Positions 1,230 through 14,069 of a stretch of 34,377 nucleotides of DNA are shown one piece after another (the first letter of the stretch is position 1; every line of letters begins with the position of its first letter). The DNA is from Wohlfahrtiimonas larvae (lineage in GTDB: Bacteria; Pseudomonadota; Gammaproteobacteria; Cardiobacteriales; Wohlfahrtiimonadaceae): the NCBI RefSeq assembly GCF_002006755.1, contig NZ_MVDO01000103.1, positions 1 through 34,377 on the forward strand, in the 5' to 3' direction. The translations under genes were made by a program, and so were the position numbers. The notes beneath the pieces were generated by a model. The model searched no databases and was not told the origin of the DNA. It saw nothing but the letters and a program-made list of their open reading frames with translations.

Positions 1230-2237
1230 TTACCTATAACTTATAGAATAATTAACAGTAATACCAAATGGCCCTGGCGTTACCTTTGTAGATGGATCTT
1301 TCTTAATACGCCCCTCATATGTTTCAGCTCTTGTAGTTAAACCAGATTGAGAATCCCAATCATAAGCTTTGCCAAAATCTACTAGACGCTTTGTTTTTTC
1401 TCGATATATACTGAACAACAAACCTCTCTCAGGAATCTTTGCATCTGTTTTCTCACTGAGAGCATTAGATGTTGTAAAAGTTATTGAAGGTGTTGTTGTA
1501 TCTTTACAATTCTGATTAGCTTTTCTAGTAATTGTTATAACAAAAGACTTCACAAATTCTGTATCTTTTTCAAGGGCATTGATATCCATTTGTTTAAAAT
1601 CAACTTGCGATGGTGCTACCACTGTAAATGCATTGGCGGTGCATGTTGGTTTAGTAGGCGGTCTTTGGTATGCTATATCCCCCTGTACGTAAAAATTAGC
1701 TAGCGCCATTGGGAAAATTAGATAAGCTGAGCTTGGTCGATATCTAGAAACTAATGGGATAGGTTCCTTGCCACCAGAAACTATAACCATTCCGACTACA
1801 TTTTCTATCTCAAAAAAATATTCAACATCTTTTTTTAAAGTATATGAATGTGTATTTTTAGTAACAATTTTTTGGGCCATATCAAAGTCCCATGTTGATA
1901 CAATTCGACTATCAGCTTTTGTTTTTAATGTTGCGCGAAATTTTGCTACTACTTGGTCATCCCTCAAACTACCATGCACTGGATATTGACTCCTCTTAAG
2001 CTCGACAATGAAATTATTCCAGTCTGTTGGTTGATTTACGAGTGGGGTTATTACAGTATCAAATGTGCATTTAAGATCCCCCCTAGTTTTAGGGCCTGAA
2101 TTAGGAGAAAGCCCCACATCCATAGTAATAGTAAAAGTTCTGTTTCCTGAGAAACTACAGTCAGCTAAAGTAACATTGCCTAATAATGCAATGCCTAATA
2201 ATACTATGGATATTTTTCTCTTAAAATTAAATATCAT
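1230..2237 (-). CDS. Two-domain fimbrial tip adhesin (FimH/PapG-like architecture)
   Basis: Probable secreted adhesin at the fimbrial tip, 335 residues. The ATG at 2237 overlaps the upstream chaperone stop as ATGA and has GGAGG five bases ahead; an in-frame TTG further upstream is not needed. Residues 1-25 form a signal peptide (basic start, hydrophobic core, ending TLA before Asp-Cys). The mature protein has two Cys pairs: about C27/C57 in an N-terminal half that I cannot assign to a known lectin family, and C199/C244 in a pilin-like C-terminal half. It ends in an alternating aromatic strand (TVNYSISYR) typical of pilin subunits handled by PapD-type chaperones. Last gene of the operon, where tip adhesins often sit. 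The adhesin call rests on architecture and position; the receptor is unknown. Confidence 0.75.
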   Translation of the reverse strand: MIFNFKRKISIVLLGIALLGNVTLADCSFSGNRTFTITMDVGLSPNSGPKTRGDLKCTFDTVITPLVNQPTDWNNFIVELKRSQYPVHGSLRDDQVVAKFRATLKTKADSRIVSTWDFDMAQKIVTKNTHSYTLKKDVEYFFEIENVVGMVIVSGGKEPIPLVSRYRPSSAYLIFPMALANFYVQGDIAYQRPPTKPTCTANAFTVVAPSQVDFKQMDINALEKDTEFVKSFVITITRKANQNCKDTTTPSITFTTSNALSEKTDAKIPERGLLFSIYREKTKRLVDFGKAYDWDSQSGLTTRAETYEGRIKKDPSTKVTPGPFGITVNYSISYR

Positions 2238-2968
2238 GATTCCTCCAATTGGCAAGTATTCTTCTTACAACGAAATGTTAGCTTTTCAACTTCCCCAGAA
2301 TCCAAGATATAAAATATTGATATCTTATCTTTTACCTTGATCGTCATAGTTTCTGATGACAATGGCTTGACAATAATATCTTTTTGCACCATATCATCAG
2401 CACCTGTCATATTATACCCATAGATAACAATATGATATTGTGTTGGATTTTCTAGGGTTAAAGTATCGCCTGATGGCTTAACCTTTAAATTCTTAACCCA
2501 ATCTTGAGTACCCGAATATTTTTTTAATCCTTTTGGCCTAAAGAATATTTTCATATCTGTCGAAATAACAATAGTGACTTGACTATAATCACTCGATGTT
2601 CCAGAAGGAACGCCTAAAATGTGCAACAACAACAAACTTTCGCGATCTTGAGGCAATAGATTTTTATTACCAACCATACTGACTTTAATCTGTTTCGCCT
2701 GCTGAGCTTCTAATCTTTGTAAAAAAGGTAATGCGACTAATGGTTCTTGGATCTTATTGCCTGCTAAATCCGTAATCCACGCATGCGCTAAAAAAGGGCG
2801 CTCTGTATTTGTATTTTCAACTACTAGTGAAGAAGATTGATTTTGTGATTGATCAAATATCACTCGCGTTCTATCAAACGTTAATTGCGCCCATGAAAAT
2901 GTTATCAATGAGGCACAACATAGCCCTAACATTAGCCCTTGAAAATAACGTCTAAACCTGAACATCAT
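2234..2968 (-). CDS. Periplasmic fimbrial chaperone, PapD/FimC family (second copy)
   Basis: Periplasmic chaperone that donates a strand to fold pilin subunits and delivers them to the usher. 244 residues with a signal peptide ending around SWA before QLTFDRTR. The family features are present: the FDRTR arginine equivalent to PapD Arg8, LPQDRES, the MKIFFRP lysine equivalent to PapD Lys112, LENPTQYHIVIYG, and a terminal Cys pair (RCKKNTC). Tandem ATGATG start with AGGAG ahead at 2973-2977. It lies 23 bases after the first chaperone gene and overlaps the adhesin start. It is clearly a paralogue of the neighbouring chaperone (long identical blocks such as PLVALP and RPKGLKKYS), but it has diverged in the loops, so it may serve a different subunit, for example the adhesin next to it. 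Confidence 0.9.
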   Translation of the reverse strand: MMFRFRRYFQGLMLGLCCASLITFSWAQLTFDRTRVIFDQSQNQSSSLVVENTNTERPFLAHAWITDLAGNKIQEPLVALPFLQRLEAQQAKQIKVSMVGNKNLLPQDRESLLLLHILGVPSGTSSDYSQVTIVISTDMKIFFRPKGLKKYSGTQDWVKNLKVKPSGDTLTLENPTQYHIVIYGYNMTGADDMVQKDIIVKPLSSETMTIKVKDKISIFYILDSGEVEKLTFRCKKNTCQLEES

Positions 2969-2991
2969 TATTCTCCTGTTGTATTAAAATT

Positions 2992-3699
2992 TTATTGCAC
3001 GACCGTACATAAATTACTATTACAACGATAATGAATGGCTGCCCCACCACCATTATCTTTCATATAAAGAATCGATGGTGTATTACCTAAATTGACTGTC
3101 ACTTTTTCACTGCTAAATGGCTTTAAAACCACATCTTTTTCAATTGCCTTACTACCTTTTCCTGCTCTAAAACCATAAATTACAATATGATAGGGTGTTG
3201 GGTTCTCGAGTGTATATGTCCCCCCTGATTTACTGACCTTCATTTCTTGCACCCAAGCGTTATTGCTATACTTTTTTAACCCTTTAGGGCGATAAAACAA
3301 TTTTAAGTTTGATTTAATCATAATGTTTAATTGGCCTGCTACTTGGCTATCTTTTGGAGGTACACCCAATATATTTAAACTCAATAAACTCTCTTTATCT
3401 TGAGGTAGAACTTGTTCACTGCCAACTAAACCAATCTTAATTTGTTTTTCTTGTTTAGGATTAATGCGCTGCAACATTGGTAGTGCAACCAATGGCTCTG
3501 ATACTTTTACACCTTGCTGAGTTTCTATCCATGTTTGTGCTAAAAAAGGCATTTTAGGGCTAATATTTTCCACAGCAATGGACACAGAATTTTGGCTACT
3601 ACGATCCAAAATAACACGTGTTCGATCAAATGCTAATTGCGCTGTTGAGACATTCATCATGAGTGTTGAAAGAATTAAAAACTTTGAGAGATTACGCAT
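2992..3699 (-). CDS. Periplasmic fimbrial chaperone, PapD/FimC family (first copy)
   Basis: Periplasmic donor-strand chaperone, 235 residues from the ATG at 3699. That start has GGAG eight bases upstream inside the end of the usher gene; a longer start at 3720 would overlap the usher by 16 bases and has no better ribosome site. The signal peptide ends near VSTA before QLAFDRTR. Conserved features: FDRTR (subunit-carboxylate arginine), LPQDKES, LKLFYRP (active-site lysine), LENPTPYHIVIYG and a C-terminal Cys pair (RCNSNLC). The gap after the usher stop is five bases. Its C-terminal YMKDNGGG segment resembles classical PapD more closely than the second copy does. Confidence 0.92.
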   Translation of the reverse strand: MRNLSKFLILSTLMMNVSTAQLAFDRTRVILDRSSQNSVSIAVENISPKMPFLAQTWIETQQGVKVSEPLVALPMLQRINPKQEKQIKIGLVGSEQVLPQDKESLLSLNILGVPPKDSQVAGQLNIMIKSNLKLFYRPKGLKKYSNNAWVQEMKVSKSGGTYTLENPTPYHIVIYGFRAGKGSKAIEKDVVLKPFSSEKVTVNLGNTPSILYMKDNGGGAAIHYRCNSNLCTVVQ

Positions 3700-3704
3700 A
3701 TTTT

Positions 3705-6191
3705 TTACTCCATACGACATTGTAAATTTCTAAGAGATTCTGTATCTAATGAATCTATTTTGAGTGAGCACTCTTGATCTGACCACTTCACAATAAATTT
3801 AGATGTACTATTTAAACCAGATAGATAGGTCAAACCATTTTCAGCAATCATACCCACTTCACGATCATGGCCATTTTCCCTATAAACAACCGCGCCAAAA
3901 GGAGGATAGCTACCATCGTCTAATGTGATAGTTGAAATTGATTTTTCACCACTGACCGCTCCTGTTGCCTTATACAAAATTGCACCGTCTGTGGATGCGC
4001 TTTTCACCACACTGTTTTCAATCTCAACATTATCTGGCAAATTATCATTATCAATAGAATAAGATGACTCATAATAGTTTGGAATATTACTGATACCAAT
4101 CATACCAAACAGGTTTGAAGATGCTGTTGAGGATCTTATTCTCACACCTGATACACCTGTATCAATAAGCAATCTCGACCCATCATCATAGACTTTTGGA
4201 TGCGTCGCAATACCGTGTTGTGTTAAGGTGATAGAACCATCAAACCCAACAGTTGCACTTTGATAATCAGAAGTATAATCAGTACTAGTTCTTAATGTAC
4301 CTCTAGATGTTTCAAGGTTATATGATGTACTGAATCTATTTTCAGATGATTCACCTTTATTCTTTCTATTTTCTGCTGTAATTGATGCACGACCATCCCA
4401 TAAATATGTTGAGTATGTTGCCTGATTACTGAGTGAACGATCTGGATTAGAGAATTGAGAAGAATACGTCACGGTGCCATCATATTTCTCAAGCGGAATA
4501 TTTACATATAACCCTACTTGATTATTATTTTTACCATTTTGAGTACTGTGCCTAGAAAAAGACAAATTAATGTTCGTATTTTCAAACCATCCATCTTTGA
4601 CTATTTTGTTAGCAGAAATATTATAACTAGACATATTTTTTTGGTTCCAATAACTGCCCTTTGTGATAGATGCTGTCACGCTCGTGGCAATTGATGGAAA
4701 TGACTGAGTCATACTCAATGTGAATCGATTTTTTTCTAGAGAAGTATTTCGGCTATTAGATTTCATATCAATATAGTTATTGAGTGATCTAAAATCTCGG
4801 CTAGAGAAACGATAACCTGCTAGATTTAACATTAATGAAGAAGAAAAACGCTTAGCATAGTTAACTCTATAGCTGTGTCCTTTTAAAGTTTTATGGCTAG
4901 GCAAAGCAGTTTCAGAGCTAGTTACATCAAATGATACTGCACCAAATTGCTCCAAGTTCATACCCACACCTAAGTTGTATGACTTATATTCACTATTTGA
5001 TGTCAAAATTGCGCCACCATAAACAGAAACATTATTAGTTAAACCGTACGAGGTATCAAATGAAACAAAATTACTATTCACCTCTTTTCGATATTTGGGT
5101 GATAACTTACCAATATTTACGTTATAACGAATATCATTTTTACGTGTTAAAAATGGAACACGTGCAATATCTACTTGATAAGTATACTTTTGCCCATTAT
5201 TTTCTTCAATTTCAACATCCACTGTCCCAGTAATGTATGATGGCAAATCTGAAATAGCAAAAGGACCCGGCGTGACTTGCTCACTTCTAATAATAGAACC
5301 ATTTTGTTTAATCGTCACAATAGCATTACTTGATACTGTACCTGTGATTTGTGGTGAGTAACCTTGTAGATACGAAGGCATCATACTTTCATCACTGAAT
5401 AAACTCACCCCTTTGAATCTAACGCTATCAAAAACGTTACTGCGTGAATATAATTCGCCCGCATATAATTTAGCATTAAGAGATGCGACATCCATAAAAA
5501 CATAACGCTCATCCCATTCTATCTTCTTTTTTCCCTTTGAGTCATACTCATATTTGGCTCTAAATCTTAAACGATCAATGTTAAAGCCCACAACACCATA
5601 ACTGCGTAGAGCATCAAATGATTGAGTTTTACCACCATTTTTGGAACGAGAAAATGTTCCCAACAAACTATAATCCATGATGATCCCAGCGATACCATAA
5701 TCTCTGTTTCTTGGCATCAACCAAGATGAATCATAATTTTCTAAAAACATTTGAGGCATTGTGATATTGACAATCTGTGCACTCGAATCAAAATCAATAG
5801 CAACAGCTGAATCTAAAGATTCCAAAGAATAGCATAACCCTACATCTGTCTCATGCGCTTCTGTTTTATACAATAATGTTAAGGCTTCATCTTTCAAAGG
5901 TAATTCAGAGGCTAGTTCCTTTGTTACACATAAAATATTCTGATCATCTTGCATGTAAAAAAATACTGTTTTAGAATAATCAACAGTCGTATTATTAATA
6001 TTAAAAGTAACTAAATACTCCCCTGAAAATTGCTCATTCTCCCCTGAAAAAGCAGTTAAATCGACAGAATCCATCCCCAAAGATTCTAACAAGGCACTAT
6101 CAAAAGTATAGGTACTTGCTACCGCACTTGATAATACTCCTCCCAATGCTACGACTAATACTTTTTTATATAATAATTTATCCACAGCCAC
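3705..6191 (-). CDS. Outer membrane fimbrial usher, FimD/PapC family
   Basis: Outer membrane pore that accepts chaperone-subunit complexes and assembles the fimbria. 828 residues, slightly shorter than FimD (about 878). The start used is GTG at 6191, with AAAGG 11 bases ahead; a second GTG at 6185 is also possible and no ATG is available before the signal peptide. The signal peptide (basic KKVLVVALGG core, ending AVA) precedes the N-terminal periplasmic domain TYTFDSALLESLG, which has a Cys pair (LCVTKE and GLCYSL). A plug-domain region follows (GYSPQITGTV, TPGPFAISDLPS, GTVDVEIEENNG), then a long beta-barrel with the PFLTRKNDIRYN signature. A C-terminal domain ends in a Cys pair (CSLKI, LQCRME). 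It follows the pilin after 94 bases holding a hairpin and runs straight into the chaperone gene. Confidence 0.95.
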   Translation of the reverse strand: MAVDKLLYKKVLVVALGGVLSSAVASTYTFDSALLESLGMDSVDLTAFSGENEQFSGEYLVTFNINNTTVDYSKTVFFYMQDDQNILCVTKELASELPLKDEALTLLYKTEAHETDVGLCYSLESLDSAVAIDFDSSAQIVNITMPQMFLENYDSSWLMPRNRDYGIAGIIMDYSLLGTFSRSKNGGKTQSFDALRSYGVVGFNIDRLRFRAKYEYDSKGKKKIEWDERYVFMDVASLNAKLYAGELYSRSNVFDSVRFKGVSLFSDESMMPSYLQGYSPQITGTVSSNAIVTIKQNGSIIRSEQVTPGPFAISDLPSYITGTVDVEIEENNGQKYTYQVDIARVPFLTRKNDIRYNVNIGKLSPKYRKEVNSNFVSFDTSYGLTNNVSVYGGAILTSNSEYKSYNLGVGMNLEQFGAVSFDVTSSETALPSHKTLKGHSYRVNYAKRFSSSLMLNLAGYRFSSRDFRSLNNYIDMKSNSRNTSLEKNRFTLSMTQSFPSIATSVTASITKGSYWNQKNMSSYNISANKIVKDGWFENTNINLSFSRHSTQNGKNNNQVGLYVNIPLEKYDGTVTYSSQFSNPDRSLSNQATYSTYLWDGRASITAENRKNKGESSENRFSTSYNLETSRGTLRTSTDYTSDYQSATVGFDGSITLTQHGIATHPKVYDDGSRLLIDTGVSGVRIRSSTASSNLFGMIGISNIPNYYESSYSIDNDNLPDNVEIENSVVKSASTDGAILYKATGAVSGEKSISTITLDDGSYPPFGAVVYRENGHDREVGMIAENGLTYLSGLNSTSKFIVKWSDQECSLKIDSLDTESLRNLQCRME

Positions 6192-6233
6192 AAACCCAAT
6201 AACCTTTATTTTTCGTTAAAATTTTATGATTGA

Positions 6234-6259
6234 AACACTTTGCTAATCAACAAAGTGTT
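6234..6259 (-). other. Intercistronic hairpin between pilin and usher genes
   Basis: A perfect 9-bp inverted repeat, AACACTTTG and CAAAGTGTT, with an 8-base loop lies between the pilin stop (6286) and the usher start (6191). In the leftward transcript it is followed by a mixed A/T stretch without a strict U-run. It looks more like a partial terminator or RNA-stability hairpin than a full stop. Such structures commonly keep the major subunit in excess over the usher. Confidence 0.6.
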
Positions 6260-6285
6260 CCAACCTAGGTTACCTATAAATTAGG

Positions 6286-6816
6286 TTATTTGTATGTCGC
6301 TTCAAATGATACTGTAGCTTCAAAATCACCTTCGCCTGCTTTCTCTGTTGCCTTCATACGTGCTTGAATTGGTACAGACAAAGTACCTGCTTTTGTAATC
6401 GGCAAATCAGTCAAGTTAGCACCTTCAGGCTTAACATTTTCATTCGCTATTCTTAATTCTAAACCAACATTAGCAGCTGGAGTACCTGCAATATTGTTCC
6501 ATAACTCAGAGCTACCTGAATGTGCAGTACCTGGCAAAATAGAAAGATCAACGGCTGAAAGTGCATCACCATCATCTTCACCTGTAGTTGTATCACAATC
6601 ATAGAATTCGATACTTGATTTTTCCCAACGAGATGTCTTACCTGCTTCACTCAAAGTTTTAGTTGATACAGAACCCAATCTCACATCAGATACAGGCGCA
6701 ACTGTACATGCAGCTTTCAAAACTTCACCTGTAAATCTAATGTCACCTTTTGATTGTGCCATTGCTGCTGAACCGAAAGATAAAACTAATGCTAAACCTA
6801 ATACTGCCTTTTTCAT
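6286..6816 (-). CDS. Major fimbrial subunit (type 1-like pilin)
   Basis: Structural pilin, 176 residues from the ATG at 6816, which has GGAAAG just upstream; in-frame codons further upstream lie in the leader RNA. The signal peptide MKKAVLGLALVLSFGSAAMA is cleaved before QSKGDIRFTG. The mature protein has the type 1 pilin layout: FTGEVLKAACTV early, a second Cys in FYDCDTTTG forming the usual disulfide, and a C-terminal strand ending FEATVSFEATYK with the penultimate aromatic. It is the first gene of the operon, as expected for the most abundant product, and is preceded by a plausible promoter at 6892-6920. Confidence 0.92.
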   Translation of the reverse strand: MKKAVLGLALVLSFGSAAMAQSKGDIRFTGEVLKAACTVAPVSDVRLGSVSTKTLSEAGKTSRWEKSSIEFYDCDTTTGEDDGDALSAVDLSILPGTAHSGSSELWNNIAGTPAANVGLELRIANENVKPEGANLTDLPITKAGTLSVPIQARMKATEKAGEGDFEATVSFEATYK

Positions 6817-6891
6817 AAAACTTTCCTTTGATATACAGTTATATAAACTAATTAAACATTGTTCTTCATAAATTAATGAAGTAGGCCATAA

Positions 6892-6920
6892 TTTATACAT
6901 TTAAAATGATCTGTAGTAAA
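6892..6920 (-). promoter_or_regulatory. Predicted promoter of the fimbrial operon
   Basis: On the minus strand TTTACT (6915-6920) and TATAAA (6892-6897) are separated by 17 bases. The predicted start near 6885 gives a leader of about 70 bases containing an 18-base AT-rich inverted repeat (CTTCAT/ATGAAG, 6864-6881) before the pilin start. The match is moderate and in very AT-rich DNA. Confidence 0.45.
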
Positions 6921-7340: not shown

Positions 7341-7805
7341 TCATTTATCATGATTACAATCCTTACAAATCCCCTGAATTTCAATACAGTGATCCTGCAA
7401 TGACATCCCCATATCGCCCAATTTATCGCAAATGGTATCAGTTAAAACTTCATCATCTATTTCTTCAGCTTTTTGGCACTGAGAACAGATCACCATCAAT
7501 GAGTTATGCTCATGTTGATGATCCACAGTACAAGAAATATAAGCATTCAACGTATGAATTTTATGGATGAGTTTTTCTGATAATAAGAAATCCAAGATTC
7601 GGTATGCTGTGGTTGGCGTAATGCTATGGCCTTGCGCGCGCATTTTTTCAATCAACTCATAAGCTTTAACAGGTGCATTCGCTTCCAACAATAGCGCCAA
7701 AATCATTTTACGTAAAGTCGTTAGGCGCACGCCTTGTTGTGCGGCCAATGCTTCTGCATCTCCAAGATATTTCATCATTGTTTCTGATAATTGACCTTTT
7801 GCCAT
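7341..7805 (-). CDS. zur: Zinc uptake regulator Zur (Fur family)
   Basis: Zinc-sensing transcriptional repressor. 154 residues from the ATG at 7805, which overlaps the previous stop as TGATG; a GTG one codon upstream is also possible. The N-terminal winged helix carries VRLTTLRKMILALLLEA and the recognition region TPTTAYRILDFLL (about residues 60-72). The C-terminal dimerisation and metal domain has a DHQHEHNS histidine cluster and two CxxC pairs (CSQC and CKDC) for structural zinc. The wording CSQC plus the HxHEHN cluster is Zur-like rather than Fur- or PerR-like. It is the last gene of the zinc operon, so it should be autoregulated through the operator at 12656-12678. Confidence 0.92.
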   Translation of the reverse strand: MAKGQLSETMMKYLGDAEALAAQQGVRLTTLRKMILALLLEANAPVKAYELIEKMRAQGHSITPTTAYRILDFLLSEKLIHKIHTLNAYISCTVDHQHEHNSLMVICSQCQKAEEIDDEVLTDTICDKLGDMGMSLQDHCIEIQGICKDCNHDK

Positions 7806-8350
7806 CACTCATATCTCTTAATTTCATCCGGTAATATAGTATAGCCCGAAACACCCATTGCTGCCGCATCATTTCTTTGAATGACAAGCTTACCTGAAAT
7901 TGAGATTTCCTCCATGGAACGGGCGCCTTTTAAAGGTTCATCCATTTTGACATAAATGATTTGATTTGCAGGTGGTGGCGGAGAATGAATGCATGCACCA
8001 AAATATGGTACCAATAAAAACTCATTCAATGATCGATCTTCCGCCCAATCTAACGGTACGATATAACCAGAAATATTGACAGCATGATCATTCAATAGTT
8101 CATTGATAGGCGCATTTGCCCATTCAGCCAAAATATCTTGTAACATTTCTTGCGCCATAGGATCAGAGTCTGAAATGGCATTCAGATTCATATTGACAAA
8201 TAGGGTTTCAGGCGTAATAGGATCTTGAGAAATTAAATCGTGCCACTGAATTTTTTGATATTCCTGTGGTGTATTTTGATGAATACCAAAACCTAATACC
8301 AAAAATAAACCTATGAATAACAATCCAACAACTCGTACCAGCCAAATCAT
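7805..8350 (-). CDS. DUF3299 protein, membrane-anchored, zinc operon
   Basis: Function not established; it belongs to the DUF3299 family whose members recur in Zur-controlled loci. 181 residues. An N-terminal hydrophobic segment (residues 3-22, VRVVGLLFIGLFLVLGFGI) is an uncleaved anchor or signal peptide, so the rest faces the periplasm. The family core is visible: NISGYIVPLDW, EFLLVPYFGACIHSPPPP and NQIIYVKM. The Cys-Ile-His pair before the proline run is an obvious candidate metal ligand. The ATG follows the preceding stop by three bases, and the stop overlaps the zur start by one base. It is a paralogue of the DUF3299 half of the adjacent fusion gene. Confidence 0.85.
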   Translation of the reverse strand: MIWLVRVVGLLFIGLFLVLGFGIHQNTPQEYQKIQWHDLISQDPITPETLFVNMNLNAISDSDPMAQEMLQDILAEWANAPINELLNDHAVNISGYIVPLDWAEDRSLNEFLLVPYFGACIHSPPPPANQIIYVKMDEPLKGARSMEEISISGKLVIQRNDAAAMGVSGYTILPDEIKRYE

Positions 8351-8353
8351 TAT

Positions 8354-9538
8354 TTAACCAATTGCGATTAGCATGGTTAATAATATCATCACAACGAAAG
8401 CGATAGAGATTCCCAATATAGCAGATCGCCTATATTGGGACGGCTCTGCTTTCGGCAATATTTCTTTAAGTGCAACATACAACATCATTCCACCTGCCAA
8501 AGCTGATAGATGAATCAAATATTCCATAGATAATATTGAACGCAAAAACAAATACATCAATATTGCCAAGCAAGCAGGCATGATACCTGTGAATAATGTT
8601 CTATAACATTGCTGTTTTTTAGATTTCACAGATTCAGGTAAAACCAAACCACACCCCAAAGGAAAATTATGACAAATTACTGTAACTGCCAATAACAAGC
8701 CCAACCAAATATTCATCATTGCGGTGCTAAAAACAATAAAACTCTCTGGAATATTATGAATCACCAATGCTGTGATGGTTAATTTACCTTGAGTATGCAG
8801 AATTCTATTTAACAATAGCAATGCAACGAAACCACCAATCCATAAGCCCACTGATAAAACATTTAACTGCATCCACAATACTGCCAAACTCAAATAGATC
8901 ATCGTACCTGCTGAAAAACTCAGTAATATTCGCATCAATAATTTATTTTTTTGCTGAATACAAATCCCCACAAACCAGCCAATACAAATAGTTAACCCAC
9001 ATATTAAAGTAAGCAACGTTGCCCATATAAATGCTTGGTTCTTCTGCTCTACATCATATTGAATACTATCCGCCACTAACAAATAATCTGATTCACCATA
9101 TTCAGAAACATTACCATCTAAATTCAATCGCCCCAATACTGTGAGATTATCCATCGTTTGAATGCCAGCTAATCCTTCTTTTAACTTTACATGAATGATC
9201 TGATTTTTCGGTGGCGGTGGCACATGAATACAAGCACCATAATAAGGCACCAATAAAAACTCACTGATATTGGAAGCTTGATCCCATTCCAATGGCACCA
9301 CAAAACCAGAAATTGCTATATTTTTTCCTGATAAAGCTTGATTAGGTAATCGTTGATCTTGTGCATCCATATAGTTTTGCAAAGCTTCTGGTGATATTTC
9401 ATTGTGTGATAAATCAACAGAAGATTGCATTAACAATTGATCCCAAGTGATTGTTGGATAATCTTCTGCCAAGCTCCAAGAATTCATCAACATCAAGGCA
9501 ATGATGGTTATGAAAAGTTGCTGAAGTTTCTGCATCAT
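8354..9538 (-). CDS. DUF3299 domain fused to a ZIP-family metal transporter
   Basis: Probable inner membrane metal carrier with its own periplasmic domain; 394 residues. Residues 1-24 are a signal sequence (ending SLA). Residues about 26-165 are a DUF3299 domain (ISGFVVPLEW, EFLLVPYYGACIHVPPPP, NQIIHVKL). Residues about 168-394 hold eight hydrophobic helices with ZIP features: SFSAGTMIYLSLAVL in helix 2, HNIPES at 261-266 in helix 4, HNFPLG at 290-295 in helix 5, and ALAGGMMLYVALKEILP in helix 7. Typical ZIP proteins carry HNxPEG in helix 4 and H/QNxPEG in helix 5; here helix 4 keeps its Glu, but the helix 5 Glu is Leu. The start overlaps the permease stop (ATGA). No frameshift separates the halves. 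Zinc as substrate is inferred from context. Confidence 0.85.
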   Translation of the reverse strand: MMQKLQQLFITIIALMLMNSWSLAEDYPTITWDQLLMQSSVDLSHNEISPEALQNYMDAQDQRLPNQALSGKNIAISGFVVPLEWDQASNISEFLLVPYYGACIHVPPPPKNQIIHVKLKEGLAGIQTMDNLTVLGRLNLDGNVSEYGESDYLLVADSIQYDVEQKNQAFIWATLLTLICGLTICIGWFVGICIQQKNKLLMRILLSFSAGTMIYLSLAVLWMQLNVLSVGLWIGGFVALLLLNRILHTQGKLTITALVIHNIPESFIVFSTAMMNIWLGLLLAVTVICHNFPLGCGLVLPESVKSKKQQCYRTLFTGIMPACLAILMYLFLRSILSMEYLIHLSALAGGMMLYVALKEILPKAEPSQYRRSAILGISIAFVVMILLTMLIAIG

Positions 9539-10806
9539 TTGGAAACACTCAGACCATCAGCCAAGCTCATGCGATAAGCTCGCCATGCAGGAATCATACT
9601 TGTGAGCAAACCTGCCAACATAATCGCCCCTAATAGAAGCCATTCACCGCTCGTTGGCCAAGATAAAGTAATGAAAATACCATAGTGATTGATTAGAATT
9701 GAGCTGAATATAATGATCATCAATACTAATAAAATAATCCCCAATACAACGCCAATCACCAATAACATCAATCCTTCACAAACCAATAAAACTAAAATAT
9801 CTGTGGGCTTTGCACCTGCAGAACGAAGAATTGCCAACTCTCTTCTACGTTCACCCAATCCTGCTAAAATCGTTGCGGTTAAACCTGCTAAGCCAACAAC
9901 TGTCACCAAAGCTGAAACAATCAATAATACTTTTTCTGCTGAATTCATCATCGCCCAAATTTGATCCATCACAATGCCCGGCATGACTGCCATTAAAGGC
10001 TCTGATCGATATTCATTGATGGATTTTTGCAAGGCAAATACATGGCTACGTTTCTTCAAACCCACCAACATTGCTGTGATACTTTTCGGCTGTAAATCAA
10101 ATTTTGTAATCTGTTCCGCAGGGATGTTTAGCCCTGGAATTGGCGCACCACTTTGCCAATTTAAGTGAATGGCTTCCATCGCTTCCAATCCTATATATAA
10201 GGAGCGGTCCACAGGCGTGCCCGTTGGCGCTAGAATGCCTACGATTTCAAAGGGTTTATCACCATGCTGTGCAATCTCTGATGTACTGTTGCCATGGCTC
10301 AACACAACTTTTTGTCCAAGTTCATAATTAAGATTTTTAGCAACTTCCGAGCCAATCACAACATCAAATAAACCATCAAATTGCTGCCCTTTCGCAAAAG
10401 CCAAAGTTTTATCTCGTTGATAGCGATAATATGCAAACATATTTTCATTGGTGGCAACCACAGGATAACTTTGATGTGTATCGCCAAGTGAAATTGGAAT
10501 CACCCAATCCACTTCGGGACGTTTTGCAATCTGCTCTGCGCTTTGCCAGCCCATATTATTAGTGGCTCCGCCCAAATGAAAAATTGCATACAGAATCAAT
10601 TGCACATTGCTACCGCGTGCACCAATCACTAAATCCGTGCCAGAAACCGCTTGCACAAAATTTTCTCTCACTTGCACACGAGTTTTTTCAATGCCCAACA
10701 ATAATGTTGTGGATAATGCGATGGAAAACACGATTAACAACAATGTACCACGACGATTCCAAGAACTTTTCCAAGAGAGTGATAATAAGTAATTCAATCG
10801 TTTCAT
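9535..10806 (-). CDS. FtsX/MacB-type ABC permease of the zinc operon
   Basis: Inner membrane subunit of an ABC system with the ATPase encoded just upstream. 423 residues from the ATG at 10806, which overlaps the ATPase stop as TAATG and has AAAGG six bases ahead; an in-frame TTG further upstream is less likely. The layout is that of the FtsX/MacB/LolC family: helix 1 at about 20-39, a large periplasmic domain of about 240 residues, then three C-terminal helices. The family coupling segment GERRRELAILRSAGA follows helix 2. This family usually couples ATP hydrolysis to mechanical movement of periplasmic partners rather than forming an import channel. The likely partner here is the ZinT-ZrgA protein. 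Comparable ATPase/permease pairs accompany ZrgA-type proteins in Zur regulons of Vibrio and Pseudomonas. Confidence 0.88.
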   Translation of the reverse strand: MKRLNYLLSLSWKSSWNRRGTLLLIVFSIALSTTLLLGIEKTRVQVRENFVQAVSGTDLVIGARGSNVQLILYAIFHLGGATNNMGWQSAEQIAKRPEVDWVIPISLGDTHQSYPVVATNENMFAYYRYQRDKTLAFAKGQQFDGLFDVVIGSEVAKNLNYELGQKVVLSHGNSTSEIAQHGDKPFEIVGILAPTGTPVDRSLYIGLEAMEAIHLNWQSGAPIPGLNIPAEQITKFDLQPKSITAMLVGLKKRSHVFALQKSINEYRSEPLMAVMPGIVMDQIWAMMNSAEKVLLIVSALVTVVGLAGLTATILAGLGERRRELAILRSAGAKPTDILVLLVCEGLMLLVIGVVLGIILLVLMIIIFSSILINHYGIFITLSWPTSGEWLLLGAIMLAGLLTSMIPAWRAYRMSLADGLSVSK

Positions 10807-11531
10807 TATGTACCTTTCCCACAATCATTAATGTCATTAAGATGTATTGCTTTGGTAAAATTCTGCATGATTTCTAAATCATGGCTCACAAATAACAATG
10901 TCGTACCGTGATCTCTGCATACATCCAATAACAAATCCAAAAAATCTTGACGACGATTAGCATCCAACGCAGAGGTTGGTTCATCTGCAATCAATATGGA
11001 AGGTTTACCAATTAAAGCTCTTGCAGCAGCAACACGCTGTTGTTGCCCCACTGATAATTGATGAGCTTTTTGATGCCATAAATCAGAAGATAAATCCAAG
11101 CGTGTTAATAATGCTTTTGCTTCATTCAGTACTGAACCATGATGCTTAATGCTATTTTGAGTGCGTAATTTCGATAACTGACAAGGAATCACCACATTTT
11201 CCAAAATAGTTAAATAAGGAATCAAATTGAACTGTTGGAAAATAAAACCAATATGATCGCCACGAAAAATATCTCGCTCACTGCTACTGAGCTGATTTGT
11301 TGCGCAATCATTGATGATAATTTCACCCGATGTTGGCGCTAAAATACCTGCAATCAAACTCAACAGTGTACTTTTACCGCTACCGCTTGGCCCTGAAATA
11401 AAGAGCTGCTCACCTCGATAAATGTTCAATTCATCCATAGCAATTGTTGGTTCTGTTGCTTTAGGCCAAAGAAAGTGAACTTTCTTCAGCGCTATTGCAA
11501 TGGATTTTGCACTCTCCATTTCGTTTACCAT
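10806..11531 (-). CDS. ABC transporter ATPase of the zinc operon (LolD/MacB-like)
   Basis: Cytoplasmic ATPase subunit, 241 residues. All motor motifs are present: Walker A GPSGSGKST at 47-55, the Q-loop region FIFQQFNLIPYLT, the signature LSVGQQQR, Walker B ILIADEPTSALD and the switch histidine in LLFVSHD. The FQQFNLIPYLTILENV wording is typical of the LolD/MacB/FtsE branch, matching the FtsX-type permease next door. The ATG at 11531 overlaps the end of the ZinT-ZrgA gene by seven bases, and no strong ribosome site is seen, so translation is probably coupled. A second in-frame ATG four codons later (11519) is possible. Confidence 0.92.
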   Translation of the reverse strand: MVNEMESAKSIAIALKKVHFLWPKATEPTIAMDELNIYRGEQLFISGPSGSGKSTLLSLIAGILAPTSGEIIINDCATNQLSSSERDIFRGDHIGFIFQQFNLIPYLTILENVVIPCQLSKLRTQNSIKHHGSVLNEAKALLTRLDLSSDLWHQKAHQLSVGQQQRVAAARALIGKPSILIADEPTSALDANRRQDFLDLLLDVCRDHGTTLLFVSHDLEIMQNFTKAIHLNDINDCGKGT

Positions 11532-12631
11532 TGAATCACAGTATTTTTACGAGATAATTCCGCAGATTTCTGCCCATTTGGCGTAATCATCTGAACTTCT
11601 ACATGTTCTAAATGTGGGAAATATGGGAATAGTTTTACTTCTAATTGTTGAAGTTTTGCAGGAGTTTGGCATTGCCATTGTGCTGTCATAGTAAGATTAC
11701 CGTGCGTTGTGTGATGATGTTTATGTTCTTCTGAATGTGCTTTGTGCCCTAATAATTCAGGCTCAATCACATCTGATGCCAAGCCTAGATTTTTCACTGC
11801 ACAATTTGCATCTTTTGGTAATACAAATAGTTGATCAATGGCATTCAGTTGTGTAGCCATTGCTTTGACTTCTGCAATTTCCGCATCACTTTTTGGTGCA
11901 TATTCAAAAGAGATAAAATTCGCTAAAGCGCCTTCTAGCTCTAATTCAACATTGCCGTGTTCAATACTGATATTCATATTGGCAACACCGTGTTGATGTG
12001 CGCCATGTGCATCATGCCCAATCATTTCATGAATAATGTCTGATTGGTTAAATGCTGCAGGATAAAAAGTTGGCCAGTTACTCAGTTGTACAGCAAGCGC
12101 ATCATGTGAATCATTGCCCATATATAAATGGAAATGACCCGCTTTTTCTGGCGCAATGATGTGATCACTGAATTGAATATATTTTGGTGCAGTTGAGTTG
12201 GCATCTAAACATTCAAATTGATAGCGCACACCTTTTTTACCTGAATCATAATTGAGAATTTTCTTACCTGAATATTTATATTCGCATGAAGAGACTTTAT
12301 TAGGTGCGATAAATTCAATCTGGCTGCCATGAATTTTTACTAATGTTAAATCTGTTTTGTAGCCATTTAAATAATACGCACGATATTCTTCTATCGTTTT
12401 ATCGCCTTTCTCAGCTTTTGCCGCCAATACACGATCTAACTCACCACTCACTAAATAAGGATAAATGGATTGCCAATCACCTTCCCAATCACTCAATGTA
12501 CGATCTTGAACATCTTGATCATCAAAAATTCCTTGGCTCGCTAATATCGATTTTTCTGAATGATTATGATGCTGATGCGCCCAACTCATTTGCAAACTTA
12601 ATACTGCTAAAACAATAGCCGTTTTTTTCAT
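11525..12631 (-). CDS. ZinT-ZrgA (DUF2796) fusion, periplasmic zinc-binding protein
   Basis: Secreted zinc-binding protein joining two zinc-acquisition domains; 368 residues from the ATG at 12631 (the TTG two codons upstream is less likely). Residues 1-18 are a signal peptide ending SWA. A His-rich start (HQHHNHSE) leads into a full ZinT domain, about 27-205: GIFDDQDVQDRTLSDWEGDWQS, KKGVRYQFEC and IQFSDHIIAP, with the ZinT metal histidines in SDH (157) and GHFH (166, 168). A His-rich junction (GHDAHGAHQHG) leads to a ZrgA/DUF2796 domain, about 212-368: HGVANMNISIEHG, a four-Cys-type pattern, and a second His-rich loop (HKAHSEEHKHHHTTHG). First gene of the operon, directly behind a promoter overlapped by a Zur-like operator. 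ZinT and ZrgA are normally separate proteins. Confidence 0.9.
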   Translation of the reverse strand: MKKTAIVLAVLSLQMSWAHQHHNHSEKSILASQGIFDDQDVQDRTLSDWEGDWQSIYPYLVSGELDRVLAAKAEKGDKTIEEYRAYYLNGYKTDLTLVKIHGSQIEFIAPNKVSSCEYKYSGKKILNYDSGKKGVRYQFECLDANSTAPKYIQFSDHIIAPEKAGHFHLYMGNDSHDALAVQLSNWPTFYPAAFNQSDIIHEMIGHDAHGAHQHGVANMNISIEHGNVELELEGALANFISFEYAPKSDAEIAEVKAMATQLNAIDQLFVLPKDANCAVKNLGLASDVIEPELLGHKAHSEEHKHHHTTHGNLTMTAQWQCQTPAKLQQLEVKLFPYFPHLEHVEVQMITPNGQKSAELSRKNTVIQW

Positions 12632-12655
12632 ACCCAATCCCTATCATTTAAAAAT

Positions 12656-12678
12656 GCAATGTTATATCATTTCATTTT
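12656..12678 (-). promoter_or_regulatory. Candidate Zur operator
   Basis: Compared with the gammaproteobacterial Zur consensus GAAATGTTATA-N-TATAACATTTC, the minus strand here gives a right half TATAACATTGC (10 of 11) and a weaker left half (7 of 11). The plus strand shows the core AATGTTATATCATTTCATT at 12658-12676. It covers the -10 element and spacer of the promoter at 12659-12687, so a bound repressor would block RNA polymerase. The consensus is recalled, not recomputed. Confidence 0.6.
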
Positions 12679-12687
12679 TATCGTCAA
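12659..12687 (-). promoter_or_regulatory. Predicted promoter of the zinc operon
   Basis: On the minus strand TTGACG (12682-12687) and TAACAT (12659-12664) are 17 bases apart. The predicted start near 12652 leaves a leader of about 20 bases before the ATG at 12631, with AGGG/GGGT ribosome-site sequence in between. Confidence 0.6.
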
Positions 12688-12766: not shown

Positions 12767-12796
12767 AAGACAAGTATTGTGGGTTTTTGATACAAT
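12767..12796 (+). promoter_or_regulatory. Predicted guaA promoter
   Basis: AAGACA (12767-12772) and TACAAT (12791-12796) are separated by 18 bases. Initiation near 12803 would exclude start codons at 12777 and 12795 and leave the ATG codons at 12822 and 12831 as candidates. Confidence 0.45.
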
Positions 12797-12821
12797 GCCC
12801 TGCTTATTAACCCTTGGAAAA

Positions 12822-14069
12822 ATGAGCATTATGAGCACTCAAATTGACGAAATATTAGTGGTATATTCCAATCTGCAAGATGCACAAACTGTTGCACAGA
12901 TGATTCGTTCATTGAACTTCTACTCTGCGTTAACACCTGCATTTAAAGTCACCGAAGATATTGTTAACCAAGCGCCTGCAATTATTGATTTATCAGAGCA
13001 GGGTAGCTTTCCACAAGCAAAAACTTTCACAATCACAAAAGAATCATTAACAGATATTCACTTAAAAGCTCATATTGCTGAATTCTTAAAAGAAAAATGC
13101 CAATTAAAACCCACTTGGACAGTAGAAGCATTTGCTGAATTAGAAACTACTCGTATTCAAGAGATTGTTGGCGAAGATGAAGTGATCTTAGCTTTGTCTG
13201 GCGGTGTTGATTCATCTGTTGTTGCAGCTTTATTGCATAAAGCGATTGGTAAAAAATTAACCTGTATTTTTGTGGATACTGGCTTGATGCGCTTGAATGA
13301 AGGCGATCAAGTGATGCAAATTTTTGCTGATAACATGGGTGTTAATGTCATTCGTGTCAATGCTGAGGATCGATACTTAGCAGCATTAGCGGGTGAAAAT
13401 GATCCTGAGCGTAAACGCAAAATTATCGGTGAATTGTTCATCAAAATCTTTGAAGAAGAAGCACAAAAATTGTCTCATGCTAAATGGTTGGCTCAAGGCA
13501 CAATCTACCCTGATATTTTAGAATCAGGAGATCATCATGGTGCTGCAAATGTCATCAAATCACATCATAACGTGGGCGGATTGCCTGAAGATATGCAATT
13601 TGAATTAATTGAGCCCTTGAAATATCTCTTTAAAAATGAAGTGCGTGAATTGGGTGTTGCGCTGGGCTTGCCACCAGAAATGTTGTATCGTCATCCATTC
13701 CCAGGACCTGGCTTGGGCGTACGTATTTTGGGTGAAATCAAAAAAGAATACGCAGATATCTTACGTTTAGCAGATGATATTTTTGTTCAAGGTTTACGCG
13801 AGCATGGCTTATATGACAAAACCTCACAAGCTTTTGCAGTATTTTTACCTGTAAAATCTGTAGGCATTAAAGATCATAAAAGAACTTATGAGTACACAAT
13901 TGCCCTCCGCGCTATTGAAACTATCGACTTTATGACAGCTCGTGCAGCCCGTTTGCCATACGAATTCATTGAAGAGATTTCGGACAAGATCATTTTATCG
14001 ATTCCTAAAGTGACAAGAGTTGTTTATGATGTATCGAATAAGCCACCTGCAACAATTGAGTGGGAATAA
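12822..14069 (+). CDS. guaA: GMP synthetase lacking a functional glutaminase domain
   Basis: Converts XMP to GMP using ATP and an amino donor. 415 residues against about 525 normally. The ATPPase and dimerisation parts are complete: the pyrophosphate loop LSGGVDSS (126-132), [50 protein letters not shown] and the terminal KPPATIEWE. The first 60 residues still align loosely with the start of a class I glutamine amidotransferase ([12 protein letters not shown] in place of RILILDFGSQYT). The frame then jumps to the helix just before the ATPPase domain. The region with the nucleophile elbow (GVCYGMQ type) and the HPE dyad is absent, about 110 residues. The frame is uninterrupted. The start at 12822 has GGAAA just ahead; ATG 12831 is equally possible. 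The reaction should depend on free ammonia or a separate glutaminase subunit. Confidence 0.93.

Follow-up and report, generated by a model that had tools for sequence, protein, structure and literature searches.

How zinc enters the cell in the Zur-controlled zrg systems, which occur in Vibrio and Pseudomonas (PMC9817125, PMC9820375, PMC8561739), is disputed: workers on Vibrio regard the ATP-binding cassette (ABC) pair of these systems as an importer, whereas workers on Pseudomonas regard it as an exporter, and the permease resembles a mechanical machine of the MacB/Lol type. The question is sharpened by an operon of six touching genes in Wohlfahrtiimonas larvae, located on the minus strand from 12631 to 7341 of contig NZ_MVDO01000103.1 (the window, 34,377 nucleotides). 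Judged by its sequence, the operon belongs to a known kind of system, the zrg zinc operon under Zur control, of which it is a confirmed and well-conserved variant; it does not form a new class. Its new content, as read from the genome, consists of two gene fusions (ZinT-ZrgA and DUF3299-ZIP) and of a cassette holding the only Zur gene and the only detectable Zur box of its host. In order of transcription, the features are:

12659..12687, minus strand: possible sigma-70 promoter, TTGACG-17-TAACAT (a consensus match only, of a kind no commoner than in shuffled sequence)
12651..12678, minus strand: putative Zur operator, a 28-bp inverted repeat (AAAATGAAATGATATAACATTGCATTTT) that is self-complementary at 24 of 28 positions and overlaps the likely -10 element
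11525..12631, minus strand: ZinT-ZrgA fusion, with a signal peptide, a ZinT lipocalin-like domain and a ZrgA ferredoxin-like domain with a histidine-rich loop
10806..11531, minus strand: ABC ATPase, LolD/MacB-like, of the ZrgC type
9535..10806, minus strand: type VII (MacB/LolC/FtsX-like) permease of the ZrgB type, with a large periplasmic domain containing the invariant H111, H171, H181 and H214
8354..9538, minus strand: DUF3299-ZIP fusion, with a signal peptide, a periplasmic oligonucleotide/oligosaccharide-binding (OB) fold domain and an eight-helix ZIP domain
7805..8350, minus strand: DUF3299 periplasmic protein of the ZrgE/PA4066 type
7341..7808, minus strand (alternative start ATG at 7805): Zur, a zinc sensor of the Fur family

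All six genes were found in the order and at the positions given by an earlier note on this DNA, with Pfam matches far above the cut-offs. The ZinT-ZrgA open reading frame (ORF) matches ZinT (1.4e-76) and ZrgA (1.7e-44; PF10986, 152 bits against a cut-off of 27.4), the ATPase ORF matches ABC_tran (5.5e-32), the permease ORF matches FtsX (9.5e-16) and MacB_PCD (9.7e-12), the DUF3299-ZIP ORF matches DUF3299 (3.1e-34) and Zip (5e-17), the free DUF3299 ORF matches DUF3299 (1.4e-37), so that this domain is present twice, and the zur ORF matches FUR (4.1e-14), with Zur as its top NCBIfam match. The genes also form a single tightly packed unit, as claimed: four of the five gene boundaries are overlaps of 1-7 bases, and only the DUF3299-ZIP and DUF3299 genes are separated, by 3 bases. 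Each fusion carries two strong, non-overlapping Pfam matches in a single frame. An assembly artefact or a frameshift was considered as their origin and ruled out, because W. populi and a rabbit-gut Wohlfahrtiimonas metagenome-assembled genome (MAG) have both fusions as well, and DUF3299-ZIP also occurs in six further, distant loci. The combination had been called unfamiliar in the earlier note, and we found no description of either fusion in open-access papers.

The assignment to the zrg systems holds up in comparison with their known members. In Vibrio, zrgABCDE encodes ZrgA (DUF2796), a permease (zrgB), an ATPase (zrgC), ZrgD and a DUF3299 protein (zrgE). As here, ZrgA, an ATPase, an FtsX/MacB-type permease and DUF3299 are united in one operon, which is repressed by Zur in Vibrio (PMC9817125, PMC9820375); in V. 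parahaemolyticus it is induced by zinc shortage (PMC9817125). The Vibrio operon differs in having no ZIP, ZinT or zur, whereas its ZrgD (DUF2607) is missing here and DUF3299 is doubled. The Zur-regulated PA4063-PA4066 of P. aeruginosa encode homologues of ZrgA (7ahw), the ATPase, the permease and DUF3299 (4hsp, 9e-20), but comprise four genes without fusions, ZIP or zur. The operon contains neither a ZnuA binding protein nor an ABC-3 permease (Znu-type, cluster A-I); such genes are found elsewhere in the genome.

The ZrgA part scores 97 bits against the 185 bits of the NCBIfam ZrgA equivalog, and by this measure it is a distant member of the ZrgA family. Its fusion to ZinT recalls AdcA, the Gram-positive ZnuA-ZinT fusion, in which ZinT is likewise joined to the zinc-capture protein of an uptake system (NF033605, which matches the ZinT part of the cassette); in AdcA, however, the partner domain is a cluster A-I ZnuA rather than ZrgA, and the transporter is a Znu-type ABC importer. 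We sampled 369 gammaproteobacterial genomes and did not see ZinT-ZrgA outside Wohlfahrtiimonas in the 43 that are ZrgA-positive, where two other long ORFs had no ZinT match. Within the genus, cassette-bearing species have ZinT only in fused form, and the cassette-free genomes G001 (G001:C4:101276, L130) and G003 (G003:C10:100716, L131) encode a free-standing ZinT that shares about 55% identity with it.

The last gene of the operon encodes the regulator. It scores 101.7 bits against the NCBIfam Zur equivalog, which is its best family match but has a threshold of 167 bits, and its identity is therefore assigned on residues, operator and context. The sensing-site residues H82, C93, H101 and E116 are conserved (H77, C88, H96 and E111 of E. 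coli Zur) and the structural-site CxxC...CxxC is present (C108, C111, C148, C151), so that none of the eight zinc ligands of E. coli Zur is missing. The 28-bp repeat, about 20 bases upstream of the start codon, is identical in all three Wohlfahrtiimonas operons (W. populi and L008 included), and close variants lie upstream of the distant cassettes L040-L044. When up to three mismatches are allowed, a 22-bp pattern derived from the repeat matches the 2.5-Mb genome exactly once (chance expectation in the window, 0.01). The repeat, which the earlier note does not mention, fits the operator skeleton of E. coli Zur at 8 of 8 defined positions: its central 18 bases satisfy RxxxYRxxR*YxxYRxxxY, derived from the structure of E. 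coli Zur bound to DNA (PMC4219657), as do the repeats of the Desulfovibrio and Accumulibacter cassettes. With the zinc-sensing residues and the gene set conserved and a fitting operator, the operon is very probably Zur-controlled.

The cassette zur is the sole Zur found in the host genome; the family has one further member there, a distant homologue (22% identical) that is probably Fur. Genomes of the genus without the cassette have no Zur, only a distant family member. The znuA locus yielded no Zur box. As the genome has a single box and none at znuA, this operon appears to be the regulator's only target, and the missing box suggests that znuABC lies outside Zur control. Zur autoregulation within an operon has already been described elsewhere (PMC6103462).

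A search for co-occurring homologues, proposed in the earlier note, recovered the gene set both in the genus and far outside it. The closest kin of the host are other Wohlfahrtiimonas (Cardiobacteriales), including W. populi and the rabbit-gut MAG (G005); the complete six-gene operon with both fusions is present in three of six genus genomes and was not found in G001-G003. In the 369-genome sample, DUF3299-ZIP was confined to the window's genome, and 72,556 plasmids yielded none. An alignment of the fusion searched against 84,980 species genomes recovered it in four Desulfovibrio MAGs (L040, L041, L043, L044), an 'Accumulibacter' MAG (L042) and a goat-rumen Desulfovibrionaceae MAG (L045). The MAGs of the JAIS series are presumably from termite guts, to go by their isolate codes. 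L040-L042 and L044 share the order ZrgA-ATPase-permease-DUF3299::ZIP-DUF3299-Zur, with a ZrgA that lacks ZinT, and the L043 cassette ends at a contig edge within zur. Of the set, the goat-rumen locus (L045, 404-3553) retains just DUF3299::ZIP and, after it, Zur; the two genes come after a Sel1-repeat gene that has a degenerate Zur box at 404.

In the permease tree, the cassette permease falls among the permeases of ZrgA/DUF3299 loci, and the eight full cassettes form one clade (100/100) uniting Wohlfahrtiimonas and Desulfovibrio. The window permease is 62-68% identical to the Desulfovibrio and Accumulibacter permeases, against 34-53% to other zrg permeases. Since the cassette permeases form one clade, the cassette is best read as horizontally transferred between two phyla; a zinc regulator would thus travel between phyla with what is apparently its only target. 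The 'Accumulibacter' label is doubtful, as MAG contigs can be misbinned, whereas the Desulfovibrio assignment is backed by four separate MAGs. We identified no mobile element with the cassette. It lies beside a guaA-like gene in two species of the genus and elsewhere in the third, in which the guaA-like gene adjoins the EutQ-like gene found flanking the cassette in W. populi.

The permease groups with MacB, LolCDE and FtsX by sequence and by model; the model is of their four-helix type and MacB is its best structural match. This class moves substrates or force on the periplasmic side, and we know of no importer channel within it. The cassette permease shares with these type VII systems (MacB, LolCDE, FtsEX) a large periplasmic domain and a LolD-like ATPase, separate or fused, but differs from them in four zrg-specific histidines and in having no MacA or lipoprotein partner adjoining. 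These histidines (H111, H171, H181 and H214 in the 423-residue numbering; H117, H177, H187 and H220 in the other numbering used) do not vary among 25 zrg permeases with identities as low as 34%, and neither do D109 and D200. In E. coli MacB, LolC and LolE, different residues occupy the aligned positions, in an alignment that is rough for proteins so distant. Such conservation would fit histidines that contact a metal or a metal chaperone.

The AlphaFold model of the DUF3299-ZIP fusion (predicted local distance difference test score 78.6) has an OB-fold domain followed by eight helices and matches PA4066 (4hsp, 1.6e-9) and BbZIP (2.2e-4). Most fusion members carry positive charges on ZIP loops 1-2, 3-4, 5-6 and 7-8. 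This positive-inside pattern and the model put the DUF3299 domain, by prediction, in the periplasm at the ZIP entrance, with the termini outside. Like ZupT and BbZIP, the fused ZIP has eight helices, the ZIP fold and the H/E/H residues of the primary site; it differs from them in its N-terminal DUF3299 and in the replacement of a glutamate in helix 5 by Leu and of another in helix 6 by Pro or Ala. The primary (M1) metal site, H261, E265 and H290 (BbZIP H177, E181 and Q207), is invariant in nine fusions, and M213 (BbZIP M99) is Met or Leu. An extra conserved histidine was considered as a hallmark of fused DUF3299 and ruled out, as several free DUF3299 proteins carry it.

From these parts we propose a self-contained, autoregulated, horizontally transferred zrg-type zinc-acquisition cassette with entry through ZIP, a reading that we hold to be evenly poised between right and wrong. 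The sequence supports the regulatory half: with ample zinc, Zur from the last gene should occupy the one operator, which lies over the promoter, and so silence the whole operon together with zur itself. The rest is suggested by the protein families. Under zinc shortage, ZinT-ZrgA would bind periplasmic zinc and the MacB/Lol-type ABC pair would spend ATP to reshape its own periplasmic domain, where the four invariant histidines may contact zinc or zinc-loaded ZrgA. DUF3299 would then receive the zinc, and the ZIP domain, its entrance covalently tied to a DUF3299 domain, would admit it to the cytoplasm by a single-site pathway. Such a course of capture, ABC hand-over and entry through ZIP is plausible. 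It is favoured by the gene content, the touching junctions, the unique conserved operator, the Zur ligands, the shared gene order and the permease clade, by the predicted position of DUF3299 at the ZIP entrance, the M1 residues, the permease histidines and the Vibrio zrg data, and by the goat-rumen locus, which retains only DUF3299::ZIP and Zur. A more specific form, tentative and on the unlikely side, is a hybrid ABC-ZIP importer: the type VII ABC would strip zinc from ZinT-ZrgA by means of its periplasmic histidines and load the OB-fold DUF3299 gate of the attached single-site ZIP elevator, itself carrying no zinc through the membrane, the whole forming a transferable cassette with a private sensor. 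Because the parts, a candidate membrane route and the regulator with its operator are packed together, and the residue predictions are clear, the zrg mechanism could be tested by transferring one operon.

Several points weigh against the proposal. A ZIP (counted if over the Pfam cut-off) is present in 10 of the 43 ZrgA genomes of the sample against 160 of the 326 without ZrgA (Fisher p = 0.0017, a nominal value, as the genomes are related), which speaks against ZIP as an obligate or general partner of zrg systems. Since most ZrgA genomes have no ZIP at all, canonical zrg systems function without one and the DUF3299-ZIP fusion is a lineage-specific extension. In all nine fusions, the bridging glutamate of helix 5 (E211 by BbZIP alignment) is Leu and the glutamate of helix 6 (E240) is Pro, Ala or another non-acidic residue, whereas free-standing ZIP relatives retain both; the fused ZIPs lack the second metal site and a complete binuclear centre, so their ability to transport is uncertain. 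In V. cholerae, single knockouts of ZrgD or ZrgE (DUF3299) had no growth effect (PMC9820375). Finally, the physical order of hand-over is something we infer. Of the single capture, hand-over and ZIP-entry device inferred in the earlier note, the zrg-type zinc unit is supported, by its gene set, Zur ligands and operator; ABC hand-over and entry through ZIP are less certain, the scarcity of ZIP in ZrgA genomes, the missing second metal site and the pyochelin-cobalt export proposed for the P. aeruginosa pair (PMC11481552) counting against them.

The lost glutamates could instead mean that the ZIP domain is a degenerate, non-transporting anchor, or a zinc-level sensor, that positions DUF3299 beside the ABC complex, and this would agree with the low scores that Pfam gives to the ZIP parts in Desulfovibrio. 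A complete binuclear centre is a feature of many ZIPs but is not needed for the fold. M1, with its invariant H261, E265 and H290, is the primary transport site of ZIPs and the second metal site is not (PMC9873690), so that a single-site transporter is possible; moreover, the goat-rumen MAG keeps DUF3299::ZIP with Zur where no ABC genes adjoin. We consider a degenerate ZIP improbable.

Direct import of zinc by the ABC pair, as proposed for Vibrio ZrgABC, with ZIP as a side entry or as a membrane anchor for DUF3299, seems to us rather unlikely, though it would explain how zinc enters the many zrg genomes that have no ZIP, and the invariant permease histidines would suit it. It also draws on the V. 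cholerae znuA mutant, which requires ZrgA for zinc-limited growth (PMC9820375). Yet the primary-site residues of ZIP are kept in all nine fusions, and the permease model belongs to a class acting on the periplasmic side. That MacB is the best structural match would accord with export, and the PA4064-PA4065 pair has been proposed to export pyochelin-cobalt, PA4065 mutants showing pyochelin phenotypes (PMC11481552). By analogy, the pair here would export a zinc or cobalt chelator and other proteins would handle the returning metal. However, neither a chelator biosynthesis gene nor a gene for a MacA-like adaptor was seen next to the genes in the window, in the Wohlfahrtiimonas loci or in those of Desulfovibrio, and the cassette crossed phyla without them; we rate chelator export the least probable of these explanations.

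Other zrg loci in the dataset differ in content. Four alphaproteobacterial loci (L059 7907-8962, L065 7748-8809, L062 and L063) have a secreted-looking protein of about 350 amino acids between the permease and DUF3299; Pfam gave no match for the copies in L059 and L065. In the gammaproteobacterial L009 (4857-12802), ZrgA is clustered with znuCBA-like genes, two CobW/COG0523-like GTPases and a zur-like gene, with no MacB-type permease adjoining.

On the upstream side of the window cassette, the GuaA-like protein (12777-14069) has synthetase and C-terminal domains and no recognisable glutamine amidotransferase domain; every one of the six genus genomes has it. A second, distinct GuaA-like copy (about 52% identity) occurs in the other five, but none was found in the genome of the window. 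A chaperone-usher fimbrial operon (1230-6900 of the window) lies just downstream of the cassette; it is not at this position in W. populi.

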